Shown here in pieces: positions 8,412 through 14,949 of a stretch of 19,330 nt of DNA. Position numbers and translations under genes: made by a program. This stretch comes from Bacteroides sp. CAG:144. GTDB lineage: Bacteria; Bacteroidota; Bacteroidia; Bacteroidales; UBA11471. A model generated the notes under the pieces. That model worked only from the letters and a program-made list of their open reading frames with translations, was not told the origin of the DNA and did not search any database. The stretch covers positions 13,485-32,814 of the forward strand of contig HF999744.1 of NCBI GenBank assembly GCA_000434215.1. Reading direction: 5' to 3'. Positions within the stretch are counted from its first letter, which is position 1, and every line of letters starts with the position of its first letter.

Positions 8412-9596
8412 TTACTTAGGCATGTGTTTTAAGTAGGTTTCTATATCTTTATCTCCGCGCCCCGATACGGTAAGGACAACAATATCTGTCGGCTTGAATG
8501 CTATTTTGGACAATGCACCTAAGGCATGTGCCGATTCGAGAGCCGGAATGATACCTTCTAAGCGGGTCAGTTCATAGGCGGCAGCCAACGCTTCGTCATC
8601 GTTGATAGCCAATACGGTGGCGCGTTTTTGTCGGGAGAGATTGGCATGTAGAGGTCCTATTCCCGGATAGTCGAGTCCGGCCGATATGGAGTAGGGTTCT
8701 TGTATCTGTCCGTCTTCGTTTTGCATGACGAGAGTGCGGGCTCCGTGTATGATTCCTTCGCGGCCCAGTTGTATGGTCGCTGCCGACATGGGTGTGTCGA
8801 TACCCAAGCCTCCTGCTTCGGCCAGTACGATTTTTACTCTTTCGTCATCGATGTAATGATATATCGTTCCGGCGGCGTTGCTTCCGCCTCCTACGCAAGC
8901 CATCAGGTAGTCGGGGTAATCGCGGCCTTCTTGTTCGAGCAGTTGTTTGCGTATTTCTTCGCTGATGACCGATTGCAGCCGGGCAACCATGTCGGGGTAG
9001 GGATGTGGTCCTACGGTCGAGCCTATGATATAATAGGTGTCGGCCGGGTGGCAACACCAGTCGCGTATCGCTTCATTGGTTGCGTCTTTCAGTGTCATGT
9101 TACCCGATGTTACGGGTTGTACTTTCGCTCCCAGCATTTTCATTTTTTCAACGTTAATGTGTTGTCTTTCCACATCGGTTTTTCCCATGTATACGATACA
9201 TTCCATATTCATAAGGGCACATACCGTCGCTGTGGCGACGCCATGTTGCCCGGCACCGGTTTCGGCGATAATCCGGGTTTTTCCCATGCGGCGGGCCAGC
9301 AGTATCTGGCCTATCGTGTTGTTTATTTTATGTGCGCCGGTGTGGTTCAGGTCTTCACGTTTCAGATAGATTTTACAACCGTATTTTTCCGACAATCTGT
9401 TGGCCCGATAGAGAGGAGAGGGCCTTCCTACGTAATTACGAAGCAATTCGTCATACTCGCGTTTGAACGATTCGCTTTCGATGACTTCGAGATAGCTCTT
9501 TTGCAGTTCTTCTACGCAACGGTGTAGAATTTCGGGAACGTAAGCACCTCCGAATTCTCCGTAATACCCCTCGCTATTTACATGAAATGTTTTCAT
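8412..9596 (-). CDS. trpB: Tryptophan synthase beta subunit
   Basis: TrpB is the PLP enzyme that joins indole to serine to make tryptophan. It is 394 residues, TrpB1-type. The Schiff-base lysine is K90 in [11 protein letters not shown] and the acid-base glutamate is E112 in [19 protein letters not shown] binds the PLP phosphate, and [14 protein letters not shown] and [11 protein letters not shown] are family signatures. It is the first structural gene of the operon, unlike the enterobacterial order but as in other Bacteroidetes. The ATG lies 42 bp after the U-tract of the attenuator terminator. Confidence 0.97.
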
Positions 9597-9638
9597 TGTG
9601 TTTGTATTTTTAGTTTATGATTTTATCCGGCAGATACC

Positions 9639-9672
9639 AAAAAAGGCCCGTCGTAATTACGACGGGCCTTTT
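9639..9672 (-). terminator. trp attenuator terminator hairpin
   Basis: On the minus strand a perfect 12-bp GC-rich stem (9645-9656 with 9657-9668, core GGCCCGTCGTAA) is extended by four A-T pairs and followed by six U residues (9644-9639). This is an intrinsic terminator between the leader peptide and trpB. The central 14 bases are fully self-complementary, so a small loop must open at the tip. The half TTACGACGG can instead pair with TTGTCGTAA at the end of the leader-peptide gene, giving a competing antiterminator. Confidence 0.88.
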
Positions 9673-9710
9673 ATTCTTTTGGGATATCTTGTTATCTATA
9701 CATATATACG

Positions 9711-9750
9711 GCACATCTCCTTACGACAATTGTTGCTGTAAGTAGTGCCA
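9711..9750 (-). promoter_or_regulatory. trp leader 1:2 hairpin overlapping the Trp codons
   Basis: On the minus strand GGCAC (overlapping the last Trp codon and His codon) can pair with GTGCC (9715-9711). Inside it CTTAC pairs with GTAAG, the latter overlapping the leader stop codon, and CAA with TTG closes the tip. A ribosome stalled on the Trp codons would cover the 5' arm and free the 3' arm, TTGTCGTAA. That arm could then pair with TTACGACGG of the terminator (9 pairs, two of them G-U). The layout is that of classical attenuation; the folding itself is inferred by eye. Confidence 0.65.
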
Positions 9751-9783
9751 CCACCAAAAGTTATTTTGTATAGAATAGAACAT
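9721..9783 (-). CDS. trpL: trp operon leader peptide
   Basis: This is a 20-codon ORF starting at ATG and ending at TAA, with three consecutive tryptophan codons (TGG TGG TGG) at residues 10-12 in NNFWWWHYL. Three Trp in 20 residues contrasts with six in the 2,115 residues of the seven trp enzymes downstream. Its role is to sense charged tRNA-Trp: ribosome stalling at the Trp codons should favour the antiterminator and allow transcription into trpB. It lies 49 bp before the terminator stem in the direction of transcription. An Rfam motif called Bacteroid-trp, as I recall it, describes this kind of leader in Bacteroidetes. Confidence 0.9.
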   Translation of the reverse strand: MFYSIQNNFWWWHYLQQQLS

Positions 9784-9809
9784 GTCGATATTGTTTCTGT
9801 TTCAACGGC

Positions 9810-9840
9810 CAAAATTAATATCGTTGAAAAACAAAAACAA
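9810..9840 (-). promoter_or_regulatory. Candidate trp operon promoter
   Basis: On the minus strand TAATTTTG (9817-9810) matches the Bacteroidetes -7 consensus TAnnTTTG. A TTG at 9840-9838 lies 20 nt upstream in the -33 position. The predicted transcript start, near 9803, is about 20 nt before the leader-peptide ATG, as expected for an attenuated leader RNA. Confidence 0.7.
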
Positions 9841-9966
9841 GAGAAAACGGGATTTTTTTTCAAAAAAACTTTTTAAGGACGGTTTTCAGAGTAGAAAAGA
9901 ATAATTTTATATCGATTACTACATAATTGTAGGGAGTGAAAGATTTTAAATCCCTATATTTCGGTA

Positions 9967-9997
9967 TTGCCTCAGGAATAGTAACTCCGTACCTTTG
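9967..9997 (+). promoter_or_regulatory. Bacteroidetes-type promoter of small RNA copy 1
   Basis: TTG (9967-9969), a 20-nt spacer and TACCTTTG (9990-9997) fit the Bacteroidetes -33/-7 consensus. The -7 box is a full match to TAnnTTTG. The expected start is near 10004. Confidence 0.78.
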
Positions 9998-10003
9998 CTA
10001 TGT

Positions 10004-10101
10004 AAAAATGAAAATGCTATACTTGATATAATAGGATTTGGGTTTAATAATAATGTAGTGTGTAAGTCGAGGTCTGATGGGAATCGGATCTCGTCCTTTT
10101 T
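10004..10101 (+). ncRNA. Putative small RNA, copy 1
   Basis: This predicted transcript of about 98 nt runs from a consensus promoter to an intrinsic terminator. The body is AT-rich and contains TTGATATAATAGGATTTGGG, also found in copy 2. The 3' end folds into an 11-bp stem with loop GGGA (10068-10093), followed after three bases by five U. No meaningful ORF is present; a six-codon ATG reading MLYLI is too short to judge. I do not recognise the RNA. It lies divergently from the trp promoter but has no obvious target. The evidence is promoter, terminator and paralogous copy; start and end are approximate. Confidence 0.68.
10068..10101 (+). terminator. Terminator of small RNA copy 1
   Basis: CGAGGTCTGAT (10068-10078) pairs over 11 positions with ATCGGATCTCG (10083-10093), using two G-U pairs, around the loop GGGA. 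TCC and five U follow. Compared with copy 2, one stem position changes as a full A-U to G-C pair and three more change between Watson-Crick and G-U pairs, so pairing is preserved throughout. Confidence 0.75.
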
Positions 10102-10171
10102 ATGGTCGAGTGCATTTTGCTTTTATAGTATGTAGGGTAGATTATTGGAATAAATTCCCTATATTTCGGTA

Positions 10172-10202
10172 TTGTTTTGGGAATAGCAACCCCGTATCTT
10201 TG
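10172..10202 (+). promoter_or_regulatory. Bacteroidetes-type promoter of small RNA copy 2
   Basis: TTG (10172-10174), a 20-nt spacer and TATCTTTG (10195-10202) repeat the arrangement of copy 1. The spacer sequence differs but its length is identical, and both boxes keep the consensus. Confidence 0.78.
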
Positions 10203-10208
10203 CTGTGT

Positions 10209-10303
10209 AAAACAAAAATGCTATACTTGATATAATAGGATTTGGGTTTAATAATGTAGTGTGTAGATCGGGGTCTGATGGGAATCAGGCCCCGAATGTT
10301 TTT
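10209..10303 (+). ncRNA. Putative small RNA, copy 2
   Basis: This is the paralogue of the first small RNA, about 95 nt. The body is nearly identical, with one three-base unit fewer in the TAATAAT stretch. The terminator stem is GC-richer: CGGGGTCTGAT pairs with ATCAGGCCCCG around the same GGGA loop. A GTG-started 64-codon frame (10259-10453) crosses the terminator and runs into repeats; I do not regard it as a gene. The 118 bases between this RNA and the first palindromic repeat (10304-10421) show nothing I can identify. Confidence 0.68.
10269..10303 (+). terminator. Terminator of small RNA copy 2
   Basis: An 11-bp stem (10269-10279 with 10284-10294, one G-U pair) has loop GGGA, followed by AATG and five U (10299-10303). 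The stem is the covarying counterpart of the copy 1 terminator. Confidence 0.75.
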
Positions 10304-10421
10304 AATTGGACAGCAAAACTCGCAGGAAATAAAGGAGTGGTGGTAGTGCTAACCTTTCTCTTTTTATTCTGTTTTGAGGTCGGCAAAAAGTTTTTTATGC
10401 TGATGTTTCTTGTGCTTTTGC

Positions 10422-10488
10422 GTCATTCTGAACTGAAACTTTCTATTGTTTGAGATTCTTCACTTCACTCCGTTCTGTTCAGAATGAC
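10422..10488 (+). repeat. Short palindromic intergenic repeat A
   Basis: This 67-bp element is bounded by a perfect 12-bp inverted repeat, GTCATTCTGAAC (10422-10433) and GTTCAGAATGAC (10477-10488). Its interior carries GAGATTCTTCACTTCACTCC. It is the best-preserved member of the family found through 11250 and again at 19150. Similar GTCATTCTGAA...GAAGAATCTC elements are common between genes in Bacteroidetes genomes. Confidence 0.75.
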
Positions 10489-10494
10489 AATAAT

Positions 10495-10577
10495 GTCATC
10501 TCGAACGTAGCTGAGGATCTCATACAATAACGCTCGCTTGGCGGGAGATTCTTCAAGGCAAAGCCTTTCAGAATGAC
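10495..10577 (+). repeat. Short palindromic intergenic repeat B
   Basis: It begins with GTCATCTCGAACGTAGCTGA, continues through GAGGATCTC and GGGAGATTCTTCAAGG, and ends TTTCAGAATGAC (10566-10577). The two halves are opposed versions of the same short sequence, so the element can fold as an imperfect palindrome. Confidence 0.65.
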
Positions 10578-10600
10578 ACTGTACCGTGAGGGCTGCATTA

Positions 10601-10641
10601 CTTGACAAGGGATTCTTCTCCCTTGTAGTCGTCAGAATGAC
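10601..10641 (+). repeat. Partial palindromic repeat C
   Basis: Only the right half is present: AGGGATTCTTCTCCCTTGTA followed by GTCGTCAGAATGAC, ending at 10641. It closely matches the right half of repeat F (11165-11198) and of the copy at 19150-19245. Confidence 0.55.
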
Positions 10642-10668
10642 ATGCGTTTTCAAGGGCGGCAACCCTTT

Positions 10669-10784
10669 GTCATTCCGAGTGAGGCCGGCAGGCCGACGAG
10701 GAATCTCCTTCTTCTTACTCACAACAGTGGCAATAGTATTCTCACTTGGTGGAGATTCTGAGGGGTTTCACCCCTCAGAATAAC
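10669..10784 (+). repeat. Palindromic repeat D
   Basis: The left half is GTCATTCCGAGTGAGGCCGG with GACGAGGAATCTC. The right half is GGTGGAGATTCTGAGGGG and CCTCAGAATAAC. It runs directly into the larger GC-rich repeat, the same junction seen at the right end of the window. Confidence 0.6.
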
Positions 10785-10970
10785 AGCGTTCCGTAATTTC
10801 TTTTCCACCGCAAAGAAGTAACCCAGAAAGGTCGCCCGCTGGTTATCGGGTTTTCCTGCCTCCCGCTTCGCTCGCCGACGGGGGCTGCGGAACTCGCTCC
10901 GCTCAAACAGTCCTCGCCCGCTTTCCGTCTTCTCCCTCGCTCCCGGCAGCCCGATAAAGGCGGGCATTTT
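10775..10970. repeat. Larger GC-rich dispersed repeat, full copy
   Basis: Bases 10775-10870 align with 19235-19330 at the window edge, with scattered differences over about 95 bp, proving a dispersed repeat. The inner part is GC-rich and flanked by imperfect inverted repeats, GCCCGCTGGTTATCGGG (10834-10850) and CCCGATAAAGGCGGGC (10950-10965). Minus-strand open frames cross it, one reading GLFERSEFRSPRRR (10719-10967). Such short frames recur with this repeat in Bacteroidetes annotations, as far as I recall, and are more likely by-products than genes. Confidence 0.7.
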
Positions 10971-11017
10971 TCCTCTCCGATATTACCGGCTATCAAGGGT
11001 GAGGGTGGTAACTATTT

Positions 11018-11132
11018 GTCATTCCGAGCGAGGGCGATAGCCCGACGAGGAATCCCTTGCTTTTACTCGCAACATAGCAATTGTACTCTCGCTTGGTGAG
11101 AGATTCTTCGGTGCTCCATACCTCTGAATGAC
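11018..11132 (+). repeat. Palindromic repeat E
   Basis: It starts GTCATTCCGAGCGAGGGCGA, contains GACGAGGAATCCCTTGC and GGTGAGAGATTCTTCGG, and ends CTCTGAATGAC. Structure and length match repeat D. Confidence 0.62.
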
Positions 11133-11164
11133 ATCATACAAGCAAAGGACTATAACACTTTGCA

Positions 11165-11250
11165 TGAGATTCTTTCTCCCTGTGGTCGTCAGAATGACAA
11201 GTACTTGGTAAGGGATTTCTTCATTCCACTTGCGCGGCATTCAGAATGAT
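11165..11250 (+). repeat. Partial palindromic repeats F and G
   Basis: Two right-half fragments lie in a row: TGAGATTCTTTCTCCC with GTCGTCAGAATGAC (to 11198), then GGGATTTCTTCATTCCAC with CATTCAGAATGAT (to 11250). They have the same orientation as the right halves of the other units, suggesting repeated insertion or tandem decay. Confidence 0.5.
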
Positions 11251-11324
11251 AGTGTACCGTATAAGAAGTTTTTCTTTCCTTGATCGTTGACTGGAAGGTT
11301 GGGTTGTTATCGGAAAAAAAATAA

Positions 11325-11357
11325 TAAAAAAAGGCTGCGTCATTTCGACACAGCCTT
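11325..11357 (-). terminator. Terminator after secG
   Basis: On the minus strand AAGGCTG pairs with CAGCCTT (7 bp), then after one mismatch GTC pairs with GAC around a 5-nt loop (11331-11357). A U-rich run follows at 11330-11319. It lies 24 bp after the secG stop and should end the four-gene operon. Confidence 0.85.
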
Positions 11358-11381
11358 GCTGTTCCTTGCATAAAGTGTATT

Positions 11382-11720
11382 TTATTGAGCGGCGTTTTCT
11401 CCAGCTTCGGGAGCTACTGGAACTTGGGTTTCAAAGTTGGGGGCCGGAATTTCGGTATTGATGGCATCTTTGATTTCAGATGTTGCCCCGAGATTGCGGT
11501 TAGGAAGGAAAGCCGCTGCAACGATACTCAACACGATAACGATACCGGCGAGTGTCCAAGTGGCTTTTTCGAGGAAATCGGCTGTTTTGGGAGCTCCCAT
11601 AATTTGGTTCGATGAAGCGAAACTCGAAGCCAAACCTCCACCTTTGGAGTTTTGTACCAAAACTATGAGAATCAGGCATACAGCTGCGATAAGGATCAAA
11701 ACGGTGATGAACACGTACAT
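11382..11720 (-). CDS. secG: Preprotein translocase subunit SecG
   Basis: SecG is the small accessory subunit of the SecYEG channel in the inner membrane. The protein is 112 residues with two membrane helices (about 3-23 and 53-75) joined by the family loop NSKGGGLASSFASSNQIMG. The polar C-terminal tail, rich in Pro, Glu and Ala, is longer than in E. coli but usual for Bacteroidetes. It is the last gene of the operon, 2 bp after the TPR-like gene, and a strong terminator follows. Confidence 0.93.
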   Translation of the reverse strand: MYVFITVLILIAAVCLILIVLVQNSKGGGLASSFASSNQIMGAPKTADFLEKATWTLAGIVIVLSIVAAAFLPNRNLGATSEIKDAINTEIPAPNFETQVPVAPEAGENAAQ

Positions 11721-11722
11721 GG

Positions 11723-12484
11723 TTATTCTGTTTTTATGTTAATAATCAATTTCTCCAAAAATCGAATTTGGTCTGCAAAGTAAATATTTTTTTCCGGATA
11801 TTTCAAACTTAATTTCCGAATAATTTCCAGCGCTTTGGCATAACGCCGTTGTTTTATGTAGATTTTAGCCAGACTTTCGGTCAGGAACTCATCTTCCGGT
11901 ATATCTTCATCTGGTTCATTGATGTTTTGGGGAGAGGGGATATCCGGTTGAAGGGAGGCCGGAGCAATAGTTTTCTCTTCGGGAGATTTTTCGAGAAAAG
12001 CATCGATGAGGTCGAAAGAGGATTTTTCGCTTTTCCCGGCAACCGTTTCATACTCTTTTTGCGCCGGATTTTCAGTGGAAATTTCCGTATCGATGCGGTA
12101 TATTGCCCCGCTTTCGGGTAAATCGGCATAAATCATCTCTTTCGATGATAATTCGCTCGCATGTGATTCGAGATAGGAATCGATAAGGTCGAATGCATTT
12201 GGCCTTTCGGCGTTTTCTTTTTCTGTTTCGGAATATAACCGGCTCCATATCTGACGGGCCCCCTCTAACTGATAAAAGAGAGATTTGCGGTCTCCCGCAT
12301 AGATGACGTTCTCATGCAGGGCATTTACATATCGTTCGGGAAAAACGTGTTGCAGTTTTTTCAGATAAAGAAATCGTACCGCTTGAAAATAAGGATAGTC
12401 GAGCTGAAAACGTAGCAGATCATCGACGGAGAGAGCCGGTACGTCGCGGGTGAAATCTTGTCGTAAAAGTTCTCCTTCTGTCAT
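11723..12484 (-). CDS. TPR-like protein of unknown function
   Basis: This 253-residue protein has no signal peptide or membrane helix, so it is probably cytoplasmic. The N-terminal part is helical, with PYFQAVRFLYLKKL. The middle is acidic and low in complexity. It holds two copies of a short motif, FDLIDSYLE (98-106) and FDLIDAFLE (157-165). The C-terminal 50 residues (about 199-247) look like one and a half tetratricopeptide repeats (LAKIYIKQRRYAKALEIIRK). It sits between lptE and secG with gaps of 4 and 2 bp, an order I recall from other Bacteroidales. A scaffold role in envelope assembly is possible but is only a guess from context. Confidence 0.75.
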   Translation of the reverse strand: MTEGELLRQDFTRDVPALSVDDLLRFQLDYPYFQAVRFLYLKKLQHVFPERYVNALHENVIYAGDRKSLFYQLEGARQIWSRLYSETEKENAERPNAFDLIDSYLESHASELSSKEMIYADLPESGAIYRIDTEISTENPAQKEYETVAGKSEKSSFDLIDAFLEKSPEEKTIAPASLQPDIPSPQNINEPDEDIPEDEFLTESLAKIYIKQRRYAKALEIIRKLSLKYPEKNIYFADQIRFLEKLIINIKTE

Positions 12485-12488
12485 AGTA

Positions 12489-12989
12489 TTACCAGTTTCC
12501 TACCGTGGCATTGAAAATAAGGTCGGCAAGTTCTTGTGTGATTTCACTTATCAGTTCGTCTTGCACATCGGTGAGCATACGGGTGCTTGAGAAATCCCTA
12601 TATGCACTGAATGTGCGATCCAAGTCGTTCGAAGGTTTCTTGGTATCGGTATATCGCACGCGTACGGTTACGGTAAGTCGTGTCTGGGAAGCATAAGCGT
12701 CTTCGGTAACGGCTTGCGGTGTAAGGTTATAACCCGTTATTTCTCCTTCGAGAACAAGGTCACCTCCGCTGTTTACGAGACTTAGTCGTGTTTGGCGGGT
12801 ATATGCATCTTTCAGCGTTTCATTGAATGTCGTGGCAAGAGGCGGGTATACCAGTGCCGCCCGTATGGGAAAGTCGTTGATGGTAATGGTTTTTGTCGTA
12901 TTGTAGTCGATCGATGCTCCATTGAATTTGTACGAAATCGTACAAGCTGTCGTGCATACGATGAGAAAAAGGGCAAGGAGTCGTTTCAT
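12489..12989 (-). CDS. lptE: LptE-family LPS assembly lipoprotein
   Basis: LptE plugs and assembles the outer-membrane LPS translocon LptD. The 166-residue protein has a lipoprotein signal peptide ending in TTAC with C16 as the lipidated residue. SYKFNGASIDY after the cleavage site and IRAALVYPPLATTFNETLKD are typical of Bacteroidetes LptE-family proteins. GEITGYNLTPQAV and TVTVRVRYTDTKKP fit the alternating strands of the fold. The call rests on this pattern and on its place between a sigma54-type regulator and secG. Function in LPS export is inferred from the family. Confidence 0.85.
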   Translation of the reverse strand: MKRLLALFLIVCTTACTISYKFNGASIDYNTTKTITINDFPIRAALVYPPLATTFNETLKDAYTRQTRLSLVNSGGDLVLEGEITGYNLTPQAVTEDAYASQTRLTVTVRVRYTDTKKPSNDLDRTFSAYRDFSSTRMLTDVQDELISEITQELADLIFNATVGNW

Positions 12990-12991
12990 GG

Positions 12992-14263
12992 TCAGTCGCT
13001 GAGATTGTATTCTTTTATTTTACGGTAAAGGGTTCGTTCCGATATTCCCAGTTCTTCGGCCGTTTTTTTTCGTTTCCCGTTGTTCCGTTCCAGCGATTTG
13101 CGTATCATTTCCCGTTCGGCATCTTCGAGGGAGGGTATGGCCGAAACGATTTCTCCCGGAATAAAGTCCGATTCTTCATGGACGATTTCCCCGTCTTCCT
13201 TGTCTATATCGTGTGGAAGATGTCCCAGAGGCTGTATGGTGCGGGTGATGGGTGCCAAAGCGTCGGGTTTGGAGTATATGACAGGTGTCGTTGCAACAGC
13301 GGCGGTTGTAACGGCATGATTACCGTTACGGTTCATCGATTCTATGGTGGCCCTTAATTCGTCGATCTCTTTTTTCATTTCGAAGACGAGATAAAGCAGC
13401 TCCCGTTCATTCCCGAGAGGTATGGATTTACTGTTGGACGAGTGGTTGAGTATCGGCAATCGTTCTATGTCGTGGGCCGGCAAGTAGCTATGTAATGTCT
13501 CTGCATTTATTTCACGAGAGGTTTCAAAAATGGAAATTTGTTCGGTTACATTTTTGAGCTGCCTTATGTTGCCCGGCCAACGGTAGGAAAGCATGATTTT
13601 TTGTGCCTCCTCGGTGAGTTGTATGGGCGGCATGTGATATTTCTCTGCAAAATCGGCGGCAAATTTCCGAAACAGCAGCAATATGTCGTCCATACGGTCG
13701 CGCAGAGGGGGTAACTCGATAGGTACCGTACTGAGTCGGTAAAAGAGATCTTCCCTGAAACGACCTTCGGCTATGGCCTCCATCATGTTGACGTTGGTCG
13801 CAGCGATGATGCGGACATTGGTTTTCTGTACTTTCGATGAGCCTACTTTGATGAATTCGCCGTTTTCCAGTACCCGCAACAGTCGGGCTTGGGTAGTCAT
13901 GGGCAATTCGCCGACTTCGTCCAGAAAGATGGTACCCCCGTCGGCTTCTTCGAAATATCCTTTACGGTCGGATAATGCTCCGGTAAACGAACCTTTTTCA
14001 TGCCCGAATAATTCCGAATCGACTGTCCCTTCGGGTATCGCACCACAGTTTACGGCGATGTAGCGGCCGTGTTTGCGTGCGCTGTTGGCATGGATTATCT
14101 GAGGAAAATTTTCTTTACCCGTACCGCTTTCTCCGGTAATGAGAACCGATAGGTCGGTGGGCGCGATTTGCAGGGCGCGGCTTACGGCACGCAACAATCC
14201 CGTGCTGTTTCCGATGATACCGAAACGTTGTTTTACTTGTTGTATTTCTGCAGTGGCGACCAT
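12992..14263 (-). CDS. Sigma54-type AAA+ transcriptional activator without sensor domain
   Basis: This 423-residue protein starts almost directly with the AAA+ domain. The Walker A is GESGTGKE (44-51), the sigma54-contact loop is GSFTGA (91-96) instead of the usual GAFTGA, the Walker B is IFLDE (112-116), and REDLFYRL carries the arginine finger. A variable linker follows, then a Fis-type helix-turn-helix at about 380-423 (GKRKKTAEELGISERTLYRK). There is no receiver or other N-terminal input domain, so activity may be set by expression level or a partner. I used the ATG at 14263; the longer frame starts at TTG upstream. It heads the operon with lptE, the TPR-like gene and secG, 2 bp before lptE. 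Confidence 0.9.
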   Translation of the reverse strand: MVATAEIQQVKQRFGIIGNSTGLLRAVSRALQIAPTDLSVLITGESGTGKENFPQIIHANSARKHGRYIAVNCGAIPEGTVDSELFGHEKGSFTGALSDRKGYFEEADGGTIFLDEVGELPMTTQARLLRVLENGEFIKVGSSKVQKTNVRIIAATNVNMMEAIAEGRFREDLFYRLSTVPIELPPLRDRMDDILLLFRKFAADFAEKYHMPPIQLTEEAQKIMLSYRWPGNIRQLKNVTEQISIFETSREINAETLHSYLPAHDIERLPILNHSSNSKSIPLGNERELLYLVFEMKKEIDELRATIESMNRNGNHAVTTAAVATTPVIYSKPDALAPITRTIQPLGHLPHDIDKEDGEIVHEESDFIPGEIVSAIPSLEDAEREMIRKSLERNNGKRKKTAEELGISERTLYRKIKEYNLSD

Positions 14264-14287
14264 ATTTGTGCGGAATATTTCAATGAA

Positions 14288-14295
14288 CAAAGATA
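14288..14295 (-). promoter_or_regulatory. Candidate -7 box upstream of the sigma54-type activator
   Basis: On the minus strand TATCTTTG matches TAnnTTTG, 24 bp before the chosen ATG at 14263. No TTG is found at the matching -33 distance, so support is partial. Confidence 0.45.
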
Positions 14296-14436
14296 GCGAA
14301 AAACTTGGAAGGACTCTCTGTTTGCCATTCTTTTTTTTCGTCGGGATATTTTATATGTTTCATCGGAAACATTTCGGTCGTAACATTGTTTCTTTTGTGG
14401 GTAATAAAAGCAATAACCTTTAAAAAATATATGATT

Positions 14437-14949
14437 ATGGGAAAAAAAGCAGTTGAAATTGTAGATTTGGACGTGAAGAAGTTGATTGAGATTCTCAATC
14501 AGGCTTTGTCAGAAGAGTGGTTGGCCTATTATCAGTACTGGATCGGGGCTCGTGTTATGAGCGGGCCTATGCATGGCGAGATTGAAAAAGAACTTTACAA
14601 GCATGCCAACGAGGAGTTGAATCATGCCGAAATGTTGGCTAACCGAATTATCGAACTCGACGGAACTCCCGTCCTTTCGCCCGAAGATTGGCCGCATTTG
14701 GCAAAATGCAAATATGAAGCACCGGTCGATGCCTACATCGAGTCGGTATTGAAACAGAATCTTACCTCGGAACGCTGTGCCATTCAGCGGTATGAGATGT
14801 TGGCGAAGTTGACCGACGGGAAAGATTTTACGACTTTTGCTATTGCTACACAGATTCTTGCCGAGGAAATCGATCATGAAAACGATATCGAATCATGGCT
14901 CGAAGATATACGGGTATTCCGGGAATCTTTGGTGGCGATGTCGGTATAA
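14437..14949 (+). CDS. Dps-like ferritin (DPSL/thioferritin family)
   Basis: This 170-residue four-helix ferritin-like protein probably oxidises and stores iron and protects against peroxide. Putative di-iron ligands are E27 (SEEWLAYYQYW), E60 with H63 (NEELNHAE), E112 or E120, and E144 with H147 (AEEIDHE). Two cysteines, C91 (AKCKYEAP) and C114 (SERCAIQRYE), are placed like the cysteine pair that defines DPSL/thioferritins, described from Sulfolobus and Bacteroides fragilis. I chose the ATG at 14437 (MGKKAVEIVDLD); an ATG two codons upstream is also possible. It has its own terminator and precedes the cytochrome bd genes, fitting an oxygen-defence role. Confidence 0.82.
   Translation: MGKKAVEIVDLDVKKLIEILNQALSEEWLAYYQYWIGARVMSGPMHGEIEKELYKHANEELNHAEMLANRIIELDGTPVLSPEDWPHLAKCKYEAPVDAYIESVLKQNLTSERCAIQRYEMLAKLTDGKDFTTFAIATQILAEEIDHENDIESWLEDIRVFRESLVAMSV

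Follow-up and report, generated by a model that had tools for sequence, protein, structure and literature searches.

The window, by which we mean the whole 19,330-nucleotide stretch of DNA analyzed here, carries two tandem units that are supported as selected, standalone small RNA genes, each with its own putative promoter and intrinsic terminator. We think it rather probable that their product is an iron-sparing sRNA, which would resemble RyhB in action while being unrelated to it. A more specific proposal, for and against which we lean equally, is that of a Bacteroidota iron-sparing RNA, a lineage-specific RyhB analogue that would silence genes for rubrerythrin (rbr), fumarate reductase/succinate dehydrogenase (sdh), and Rnf (rnf), and that would be doubled for dose or for split control. 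Iron sparing is what we infer beyond an earlier note on this DNA, which proposed no function; transcription of the units, their response to iron, and repression of the predicted target RNAs are likewise predictions from sequence.

The two copies lie ~205 nt apart on the plus strand (copy 1, 9948-10104; copy 2, 10153-10303) and align in blocks of 60 nt (85 per cent), 47 nt (96 per cent), and 38 nt (92 per cent). They are divergent from trpB (8412-9596, minus strand) and convergent with secG (11382-11720, minus strand), and each is predicted to give an RNA of ~100 nt from a promoter of the form TTG-N20-TAnnTTTG. The individual features, with the evidence for them in brackets, are listed below.

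9919-9936, plus strand: candidate regulator site, CTACATAATTGTAGGGAG, the element lying far upstream of copy 1 (similar in the homologues when upstream regions are aligned; degenerate in copy 2)
9948-9971, plus strand: conserved -33 region and upstream flank of copy 1, AAATCCCTATATTTCGGTATTGCC, with TTG at 9967-9969 (upstream alignment; site search in the relative G003)
9990-9997, plus strand: -7 box of copy 1, TACCTTTG, N20 from TTG (sequence)
10002-10101, plus strand: predicted small RNA 1, from start to T-run, ends approximate (sequence, fold, homologues)
10018-10062, plus strand: P1, a possible closing helix of copy 1, 10018-10023 with 10057-10062 (pairing in the alignment)
10034-10052, plus strand: core 1, predicted to pair with targets, GGATTTGGGTTTAATAATA (GGATTTGGGTTT in eight of eight sequences; pairing scores)
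10068-10093, plus strand: terminator hairpin 1, 11 bp, loop GGGA, T-run at 10097-10101 (sequence, fold, covariation)
10153-10176, plus strand: -33 region and upstream flank of copy 2, with TTG at 10172-10174 (repeat comparison, upstream alignment)
10195-10202, plus strand: -7 box of copy 2, TATCTTTG, N20 from TTG (sequence)
10207-10303, plus strand: predicted small RNA 2, from start to T-run, ends approximate (sequence, fold)
10238-10255, plus strand: core 2, predicted to pair with targets, GGATTTGGGTTTAATAAT, one AAT shorter than core 1 (repeat comparison, pairing scores)
10269-10294, plus strand: terminator hairpin 2, 11 shared bp plus an outer pair 10268-10295, loop GGGA, T-run at 10299-10303 (sequence, fold, covariation)

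The two diverged copies and their TTG-N20-TAnnTTTG promoters, as described in the earlier note, are present at 9967-9997 and 10172-10202. The transcribed body that it called nearly invariant is near-identical between the copies, apart from a few substitutions and an indel of 3 nt (AAT), and the 11-bp terminator with a GGGA loop applies to copy 1 and to the shared stem, but not to the whole of copy 2, whose extra outer pair makes 12 bp. Its comparison of the stems was right: one A-U/G-C double change, three alternations between Watson-Crick and G-U pairs, and no pair lost in the shared 11 bp. Folding gave z = -4.2 for copy 2 and only z = -2.0 for copy 1, and the partition function leaves the core ~43-67 per cent unpaired. 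With a promoter of its own, an intrinsic terminator, and no evident downstream gene in cis, the predicted anatomy is that of a trans-encoded base-pairing sRNA.

Several other elements surround the units. The trp operon leader (9640-9803, minus strand) combines a frame containing three Trp codons, MFYSIQNNFWWWHYLQQQLS, with a perfect inverted repeat and a T-run after it; the Rfam model RF01692 (Bacteroid-trp) matches there, on the strand opposite to the units, with 34.4 bits, below its gathering score of 49. Between small RNA 2 and secG, ~0.9 kb (10380-11260) is occupied by dispersed, partly inverted REP-like repeats (TCAGAATGACA, GTCATTCCGA, and AGATTCTTC). A plus-strand gene near the sRNAs (14305-14949) encodes a ferritin-like protein that matches Dps models best in NCBIfam, with scores below the cut-offs; the start region of this gene is not predicted to pair with the RNA, and we rejected the gene as a target.

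By function the RNA would join the RyhB-like kind, and by sequence it would join no known family at Rfam gathering score. The earlier note had not recognized a family, and in agreement with this the whole window has no Rfam match at gathering score; when 9600-10340 was scanned permissively, all matches over the units stayed below threshold, and none of them was convincing. The exact 22-nt core has no match in genome contigs (GTDB r220 representatives) and none in viral contigs. A TrpB scan supplied 80 related loci as a search space for homologues, and four of these (L001-L004, uncultured Bacteroidales, TrpB 91 per cent) have a single homologous unit, placed upstream of trpB and oriented as in the window. 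For several of the remaining 76 loci, little sequence upstream of trpB is available, and absence there is not proof.

Covariance-model searches extended this set. The model gave one strong match each in G001-G004 when run on 8 genomes and added G011 (86.6 bits) and G010 when run on 198 relatives of G003, the G010 match, at only 40.5 bits, being accepted on its core, promoter, and terminator. With a second model, run on 393 genomes of the order, strong matches were confined to G001-G004 and G011; the matches listed for it do not include G010. Matches that we did not accept came from 10 of 16 matching genomes in the 198-genome search, from 28 of 33 in the 393-genome search, and from two of six (G007 and G008) in the 8-genome search, together with a second match in G002. 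None of 20 fetched loci of weak matches (L085-L087, L090-L099, and L302-L308, some of them repeated places) has GGATTTGGG in or near the match, and the lower-scoring matches of the second model lie outside the loci inspected for the core. The accepted set comprises eight sequences, namely the two window copies and one each from G001-G004, G010, and G011; the RNA is known in seven genomes and is doubled only in that of the window, with one accepted copy in each of the six others.

Three observations concern divergent forms. In the G010 homologue (L089), the 5' leader between promoter and core is ~90 nt longer and includes an inverted repeat, GTAAGAAAC/GTTTCTTAC. A possible very distant relative, L099/L308 (G036, contig C27), has CTGTACAAAT and the TATGTGTGTGAAA-plus-terminator end (GTGTGTG), with the core absent, and another, L306 (G398, contig C121), has a core-like GATTTGGTTTGGGTTAATAAT before a terminator.

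The conclusion of the earlier note that the units are under selection as RNA genes is supported by these searches of Bacteroidales genomes, which found homologues in six genomes with promoter, core, and paired stem conserved. We looked for homologues that lose the promoter boxes or the stem pairing and encountered none: TTG-N20-TAnnTTTG, GGATTTGGGTTT, and the terminator are kept in all eight aligned sequences. In that alignment, 94.5 per cent of cells pair, with double changes in 8 of 21 pairs, whereas slid controls pair in 37-58 per cent. The covariation score was reached by none of 500 shuffles (eight sequences, three of them near-identical). P1 (TATAC/GTGTG) is paired in 97.8 per cent of cells, with one-sided changes only; it would present the core in a loop, a weakly supported arrangement.

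For the segment with GGATTTGGG, suggested earlier as a target-pairing region, target scoring supports a predicted role of this kind. We scored 1,513 start regions from 1.94 Mb of G003, which is a relative and not the window's own genome, using pairing energies that ignore accessibility. The core paired best with rbr (rank 1; -22.4 kcal/mol, z -5.1), with a perfect complement of 16 nt in the leader, and sdhC was fourth (z -3.6). The lowest energy in G003 is not unusual in itself (45 of 200 shuffled cores had a match as low), and the case for the targets rests on z-scores and on recurrence in relatives, which share ancestry. As to identities, SdhC passes TIGR02046, RnfB passes TIGR01944, and the rubrerythrin has Rubrerythrin and rubredoxin-like Pfam domains.

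The rbr and sdhC leaders were located in all five other sRNA-bearing genomes. When paired with the RNA of the same genome, rbr had z-scores of -4.9 (G003), -4.4 (G011), -3.0 (G001), and -4.3 (G010), and sdhC had -3.7, -2.9, -4.3, and -4.4 in the same order. Against the G003 background, 4, 1, 42, and 3 of the 1,513 start regions were as low as rbr and 5, 47, 13, and 3 as low as sdhC; two of these eight confirmations (rbr of G001 and sdhC of G011) are modest by this measure. In G010, the RNA core and the rbr leader both diverge from the others, with pairing still strong.

Complementarity at the target sites is weak in most genomes without a detected RNA. With the G003 core, z-scores in such controls were around zero for sdhC (-1.7 to 1.5; 11 genomes, some of the SdhC matches being distant, at 32-36 per cent identity) and ranged from -2.8, for the G005 leader, to 1.7 for rbr (8 genomes, one rbr lacking a placed ATG). 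These 11 and 8 matches came from 14 genomes searched, three of which (G007, G008, and G020) had unaccepted covariance matches. The lowest sdhC value among the controls comes from the 1.6-Mb assembly G009, where SdhC (83 per cent) is no more distant than in the sRNA bearers. Among 157 orthologue pairs of G003 and G001, a set that rbr entered via its own locus, sdhC ranked first and rbr second, with the third well behind; the minimum was as low in 2 of 150 shuffles and the second-lowest value in none of 150.

Pairing with rnfB is weaker in G003 (rank 25, z -1.8) than in three relatives (z -2.6 in G011, -2.9 in G004, and -4.1 in G001); among the four genomes searched, G010 had no rnfB match at the cut-off. 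Copies 1 and 2 of the window are about equal in their pairing with the G003 rbr and sdhC start regions and with G001 rnfB, and the window's own rbr, sdhC, and rnfB would be targets by extension. By computation, then, a conserved seed is complementary to conserved start regions of its putative targets, with korA as a failure: this gene, which belongs to the vor class likewise lowered by low iron, was not supported in relatives (z -0.2 in G011, 0.2 in G010, and -2.0 in both G001 and G004). The gene pfor reached only rank 76 in G003 (z -1.65), and genes with Fe-S motifs did not stand out as a whole class (7 genes, Mann-Whitney p 0.12; as low in 5 of 200 shuffled cores). Separately, TTAAATCCAAATCC, which matches the core over 14 bp including one G-U, stands one base before the ATG of a lipoprotein-like gene directly after a susD-like end (L106/L107; G001 and G004, contig C15).

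Evidence on regulation comes from the promoter. A search of both strands of the 1.94 Mb of G003 for the copy 1 flank AAATCCCTATATTTCGGTATTGCC found one site at up to five mismatches (it has 3), and the same search found none in 20 simulated genomes. The site lies ~60 nt before a gene for a TonB-dependent receptor, which is followed by those for DUF4374 and PepSY_TM proteins, and adjoins the sdh operon; judged by its domain order, this operon appears xusABC-like in make-up (TonB receptor/DUF4374/PepSY). In the fetched G003 sequence, the pattern GGTATTG-N19..22-[TG]AnnTTTG is confined to the sRNA and the xusA-like operon, and in the window to the two units; the 400 kb of G001 lack it. The element at the xusA-like operon is nearer window copy 1 (3 mismatches) than G003's own sRNA element (6). 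In G011, TTTCGGTATTG-N20 stands before the receptor orthologue, which has sdhB on one side and, after it, a DUF4374 gene. G003 and G011 are the two of six genomes in which the xusA-like receptor was found; G001, G002, G004, and G010 gave none. A candidate form of the shared element is AAATC-N7-TTTCGGTATTGCC. The far-upstream element CTACATAATTGTAGGGAG is not common to the xusA-like promoter and has two matches in G003, one of them the sRNA itself, versus three in a shuffled control. The promoter element has no resemblance to a recognized Fur box, and the fetched G003 stretches contain no FeoB-like gene.

The target ranking was made before PMC10434189 was consulted. The available part of that source describes iron limitation as lowering rbr, sdh, vor, and pfor in P. 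gingivalis, P. intermedia, and Bacteroides thetaiotaomicron, as lowering rnf too, and as raising B. thetaiotaomicron BT2063-65 (TonB receptor/DUF4374/PepSY; xenosiderophore use, xusABC) 489- to 676-fold; the same part names no RNA as the cause of the low-iron fall (PMC10434189). We link the RNA to iron because rbr, sdh, and rnf match this published low-iron set and because the promoter element recurs at the xusABC-like operon, which is also the reason for proposing joint low-iron induction. The five genes rbr, sdhC, rnfB, pfor, and korA had a mean z of -2.75, as low in none of 200 shuffled cores and none of 200,000 random sets; this set follows the list of PMC10434189 with ferredoxin left out, and the high ranks of several of its genes had already been seen.

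In the mechanism that we propose, low iron, via some regulator, would induce the RNA and the xus-like operon together. The conserved segment around GGAUUUGGGUUUAAUAAU would pair with the rbr, sdhC, and rnfB mRNAs at the start codon or immediately 5' of it, and this pairing would block translation of rubrerythrin, SdhC (the cytochrome b subunit), and RnfB, so that iron would be spared. The duplication may raise the dose, because both copies pair about equally well, and the differing upstream elements may split control; additive action of the two siblings is possible. Among the matches listed in the open-access literature, there was no iron-sparing sRNA of Bacteroidota. If true, the proposal would explain mechanistically why rbr, sdh, and rnf transcripts fall under low iron, as reported in Bacteroidota, at least in this clade, and the named start regions and promoter element make it testable.

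The same anatomy would suit a base-pairing sRNA that answers to another signal, such as oxygen/oxidative stress or the supply of sugar; rbr and sdhC would then be redox targets. Rubrerythrin and fumarate reductase are also part of redox adaptation, the promoter element is uncharacterized, and the top G003 matches include genes that, by sequence reading, are not iron-like (for a lipoprotein, ribosomal protein L10, SusD, and pyruvate kinase). We consider this alternative credible but unlikely, given that the element is common to the xusABC-like operon and that rbr, sdh, and rnf together fit the low-iron set in the available part of PMC10434189. Membership in or kinship with FopS/GibS, which would entail repression of SusC-type transporters at start codons, strikes us as improbable. 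The plan is the same as in the available text of PMC11697453 (a single-stranded seed and a terminator, in multiple copies), and good sites occur at the gene after a susD-like end (G001 and G004) and at one G003 susD. For three of the eight sequences compared with the R1/R1' seed consensus, there is local likeness in L003 and copy 1 (61 and 74 of 1,000 shuffles as good, respectively) but no similarity in L001 (577 of 1,000). Moreover, SusC/SusD start regions are not enriched in G003 (as low in 131 of 200 shuffles for 11 susC genes and in 67 of 200 for 10 susD genes), and we rejected them as the main target class; the RNA has ~100 nt rather than 65-70 and one copy per relative rather than 12-15, and no FopS match was listed in the permissive Rfam scan.

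A strong terminator ~100 nt after a promoter, linked to trpB in L001-L004, could also be read as a cis-acting attenuator or as a regulator of the neighbouring trp operon, a reading that we regard as very improbable. The plus-strand ORFs of at least 80 aa that start within 10306-14305 (shorter ORFs fall outside this count) all overlap minus-strand genes, so there is no evident recipient of read-through. The RNA pairs weakly with the start regions of the trp genes and with their leader (z -1.3 to 2.0), such that the trp operon is not predicted to be a target, and G010 has neither trpB nor secG in the 1.5 kb fetched to either side of the unit; in G011, the unit lies near secG and the contig ends before trpB could appear. 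We give still less credence to a gene for a short peptide (MKMLYLI / MLYLI) or to an intergenic repeat without function, readings for which one may point to an ATG-TAA frame in both window copies and to the REP-like repeats that fill 10380-11260. None of the six homologues has this frame (the ATG in L002 is unrelated), and promoter and stem pairing persist in them. An iron-sparing, base-pairing sRNA is the reading that we prefer.

Among systems described in Bacteroidota, the closest in plan are the FopS/GibS sRNAs of B. thetaiotaomicron, of which FopS is described in the available part of PMC11697453 as repressing SusC transporters; the likeness lies in a Bacteroidota promoter, an exposed seed, a terminator, multiple copies, and pairing near start codons. 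OmrA/OmrB, named in the available part of the same source (PMC11697453), resemble the window's pair as two paralogous sRNA genes with one core, with the difference that the duplication here is confined to the window. As far as the available parts of the sources go, SnoA is a different, hcp-linked RNA (PMC13370916), and Rfp18 concerns proteases (PMC9723704). A text pattern for an RRM protein (compare RbpB of FopS/GibS) found none in G003 and is too crude to judge by.

Proteobacteria and Firmicutes have iron-sparing sRNAs, among whose targets sdh recurs, and PrrF and FsrA are analogous examples. In the available accounts, NrrF represses sdhCDAB under Fur, HrrF is Fur-regulated, BrrF is induced by low iron, and IsrR is iron-regulated. 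No covariance match to RyhB, PrrF, FsrA, or NrrF was found at Rfam gathering score, and Rfam 15 may not hold each of these families. The window RNA differs from the RyhB type in belonging to another phylum, in having rubrerythrin and Rnf as predicted targets, and in lacking a recognized Fur box, the promoter element common to the xusABC-like operon being what points to induction by iron limitation. Its likeness to RyhB, NrrF, HrrF, BrrF, and IsrR would consist in low-iron induction, predicted here, and in predicted pairing with the start regions of sdhC and of an iron protein of oxidant defence; complementarity to sdhC, rbr, and rnfB is computed, and their repression is predicted from it. If an unrelated RNA has settled on the same sdh target in Bacteroidota, this would exemplify convergence.
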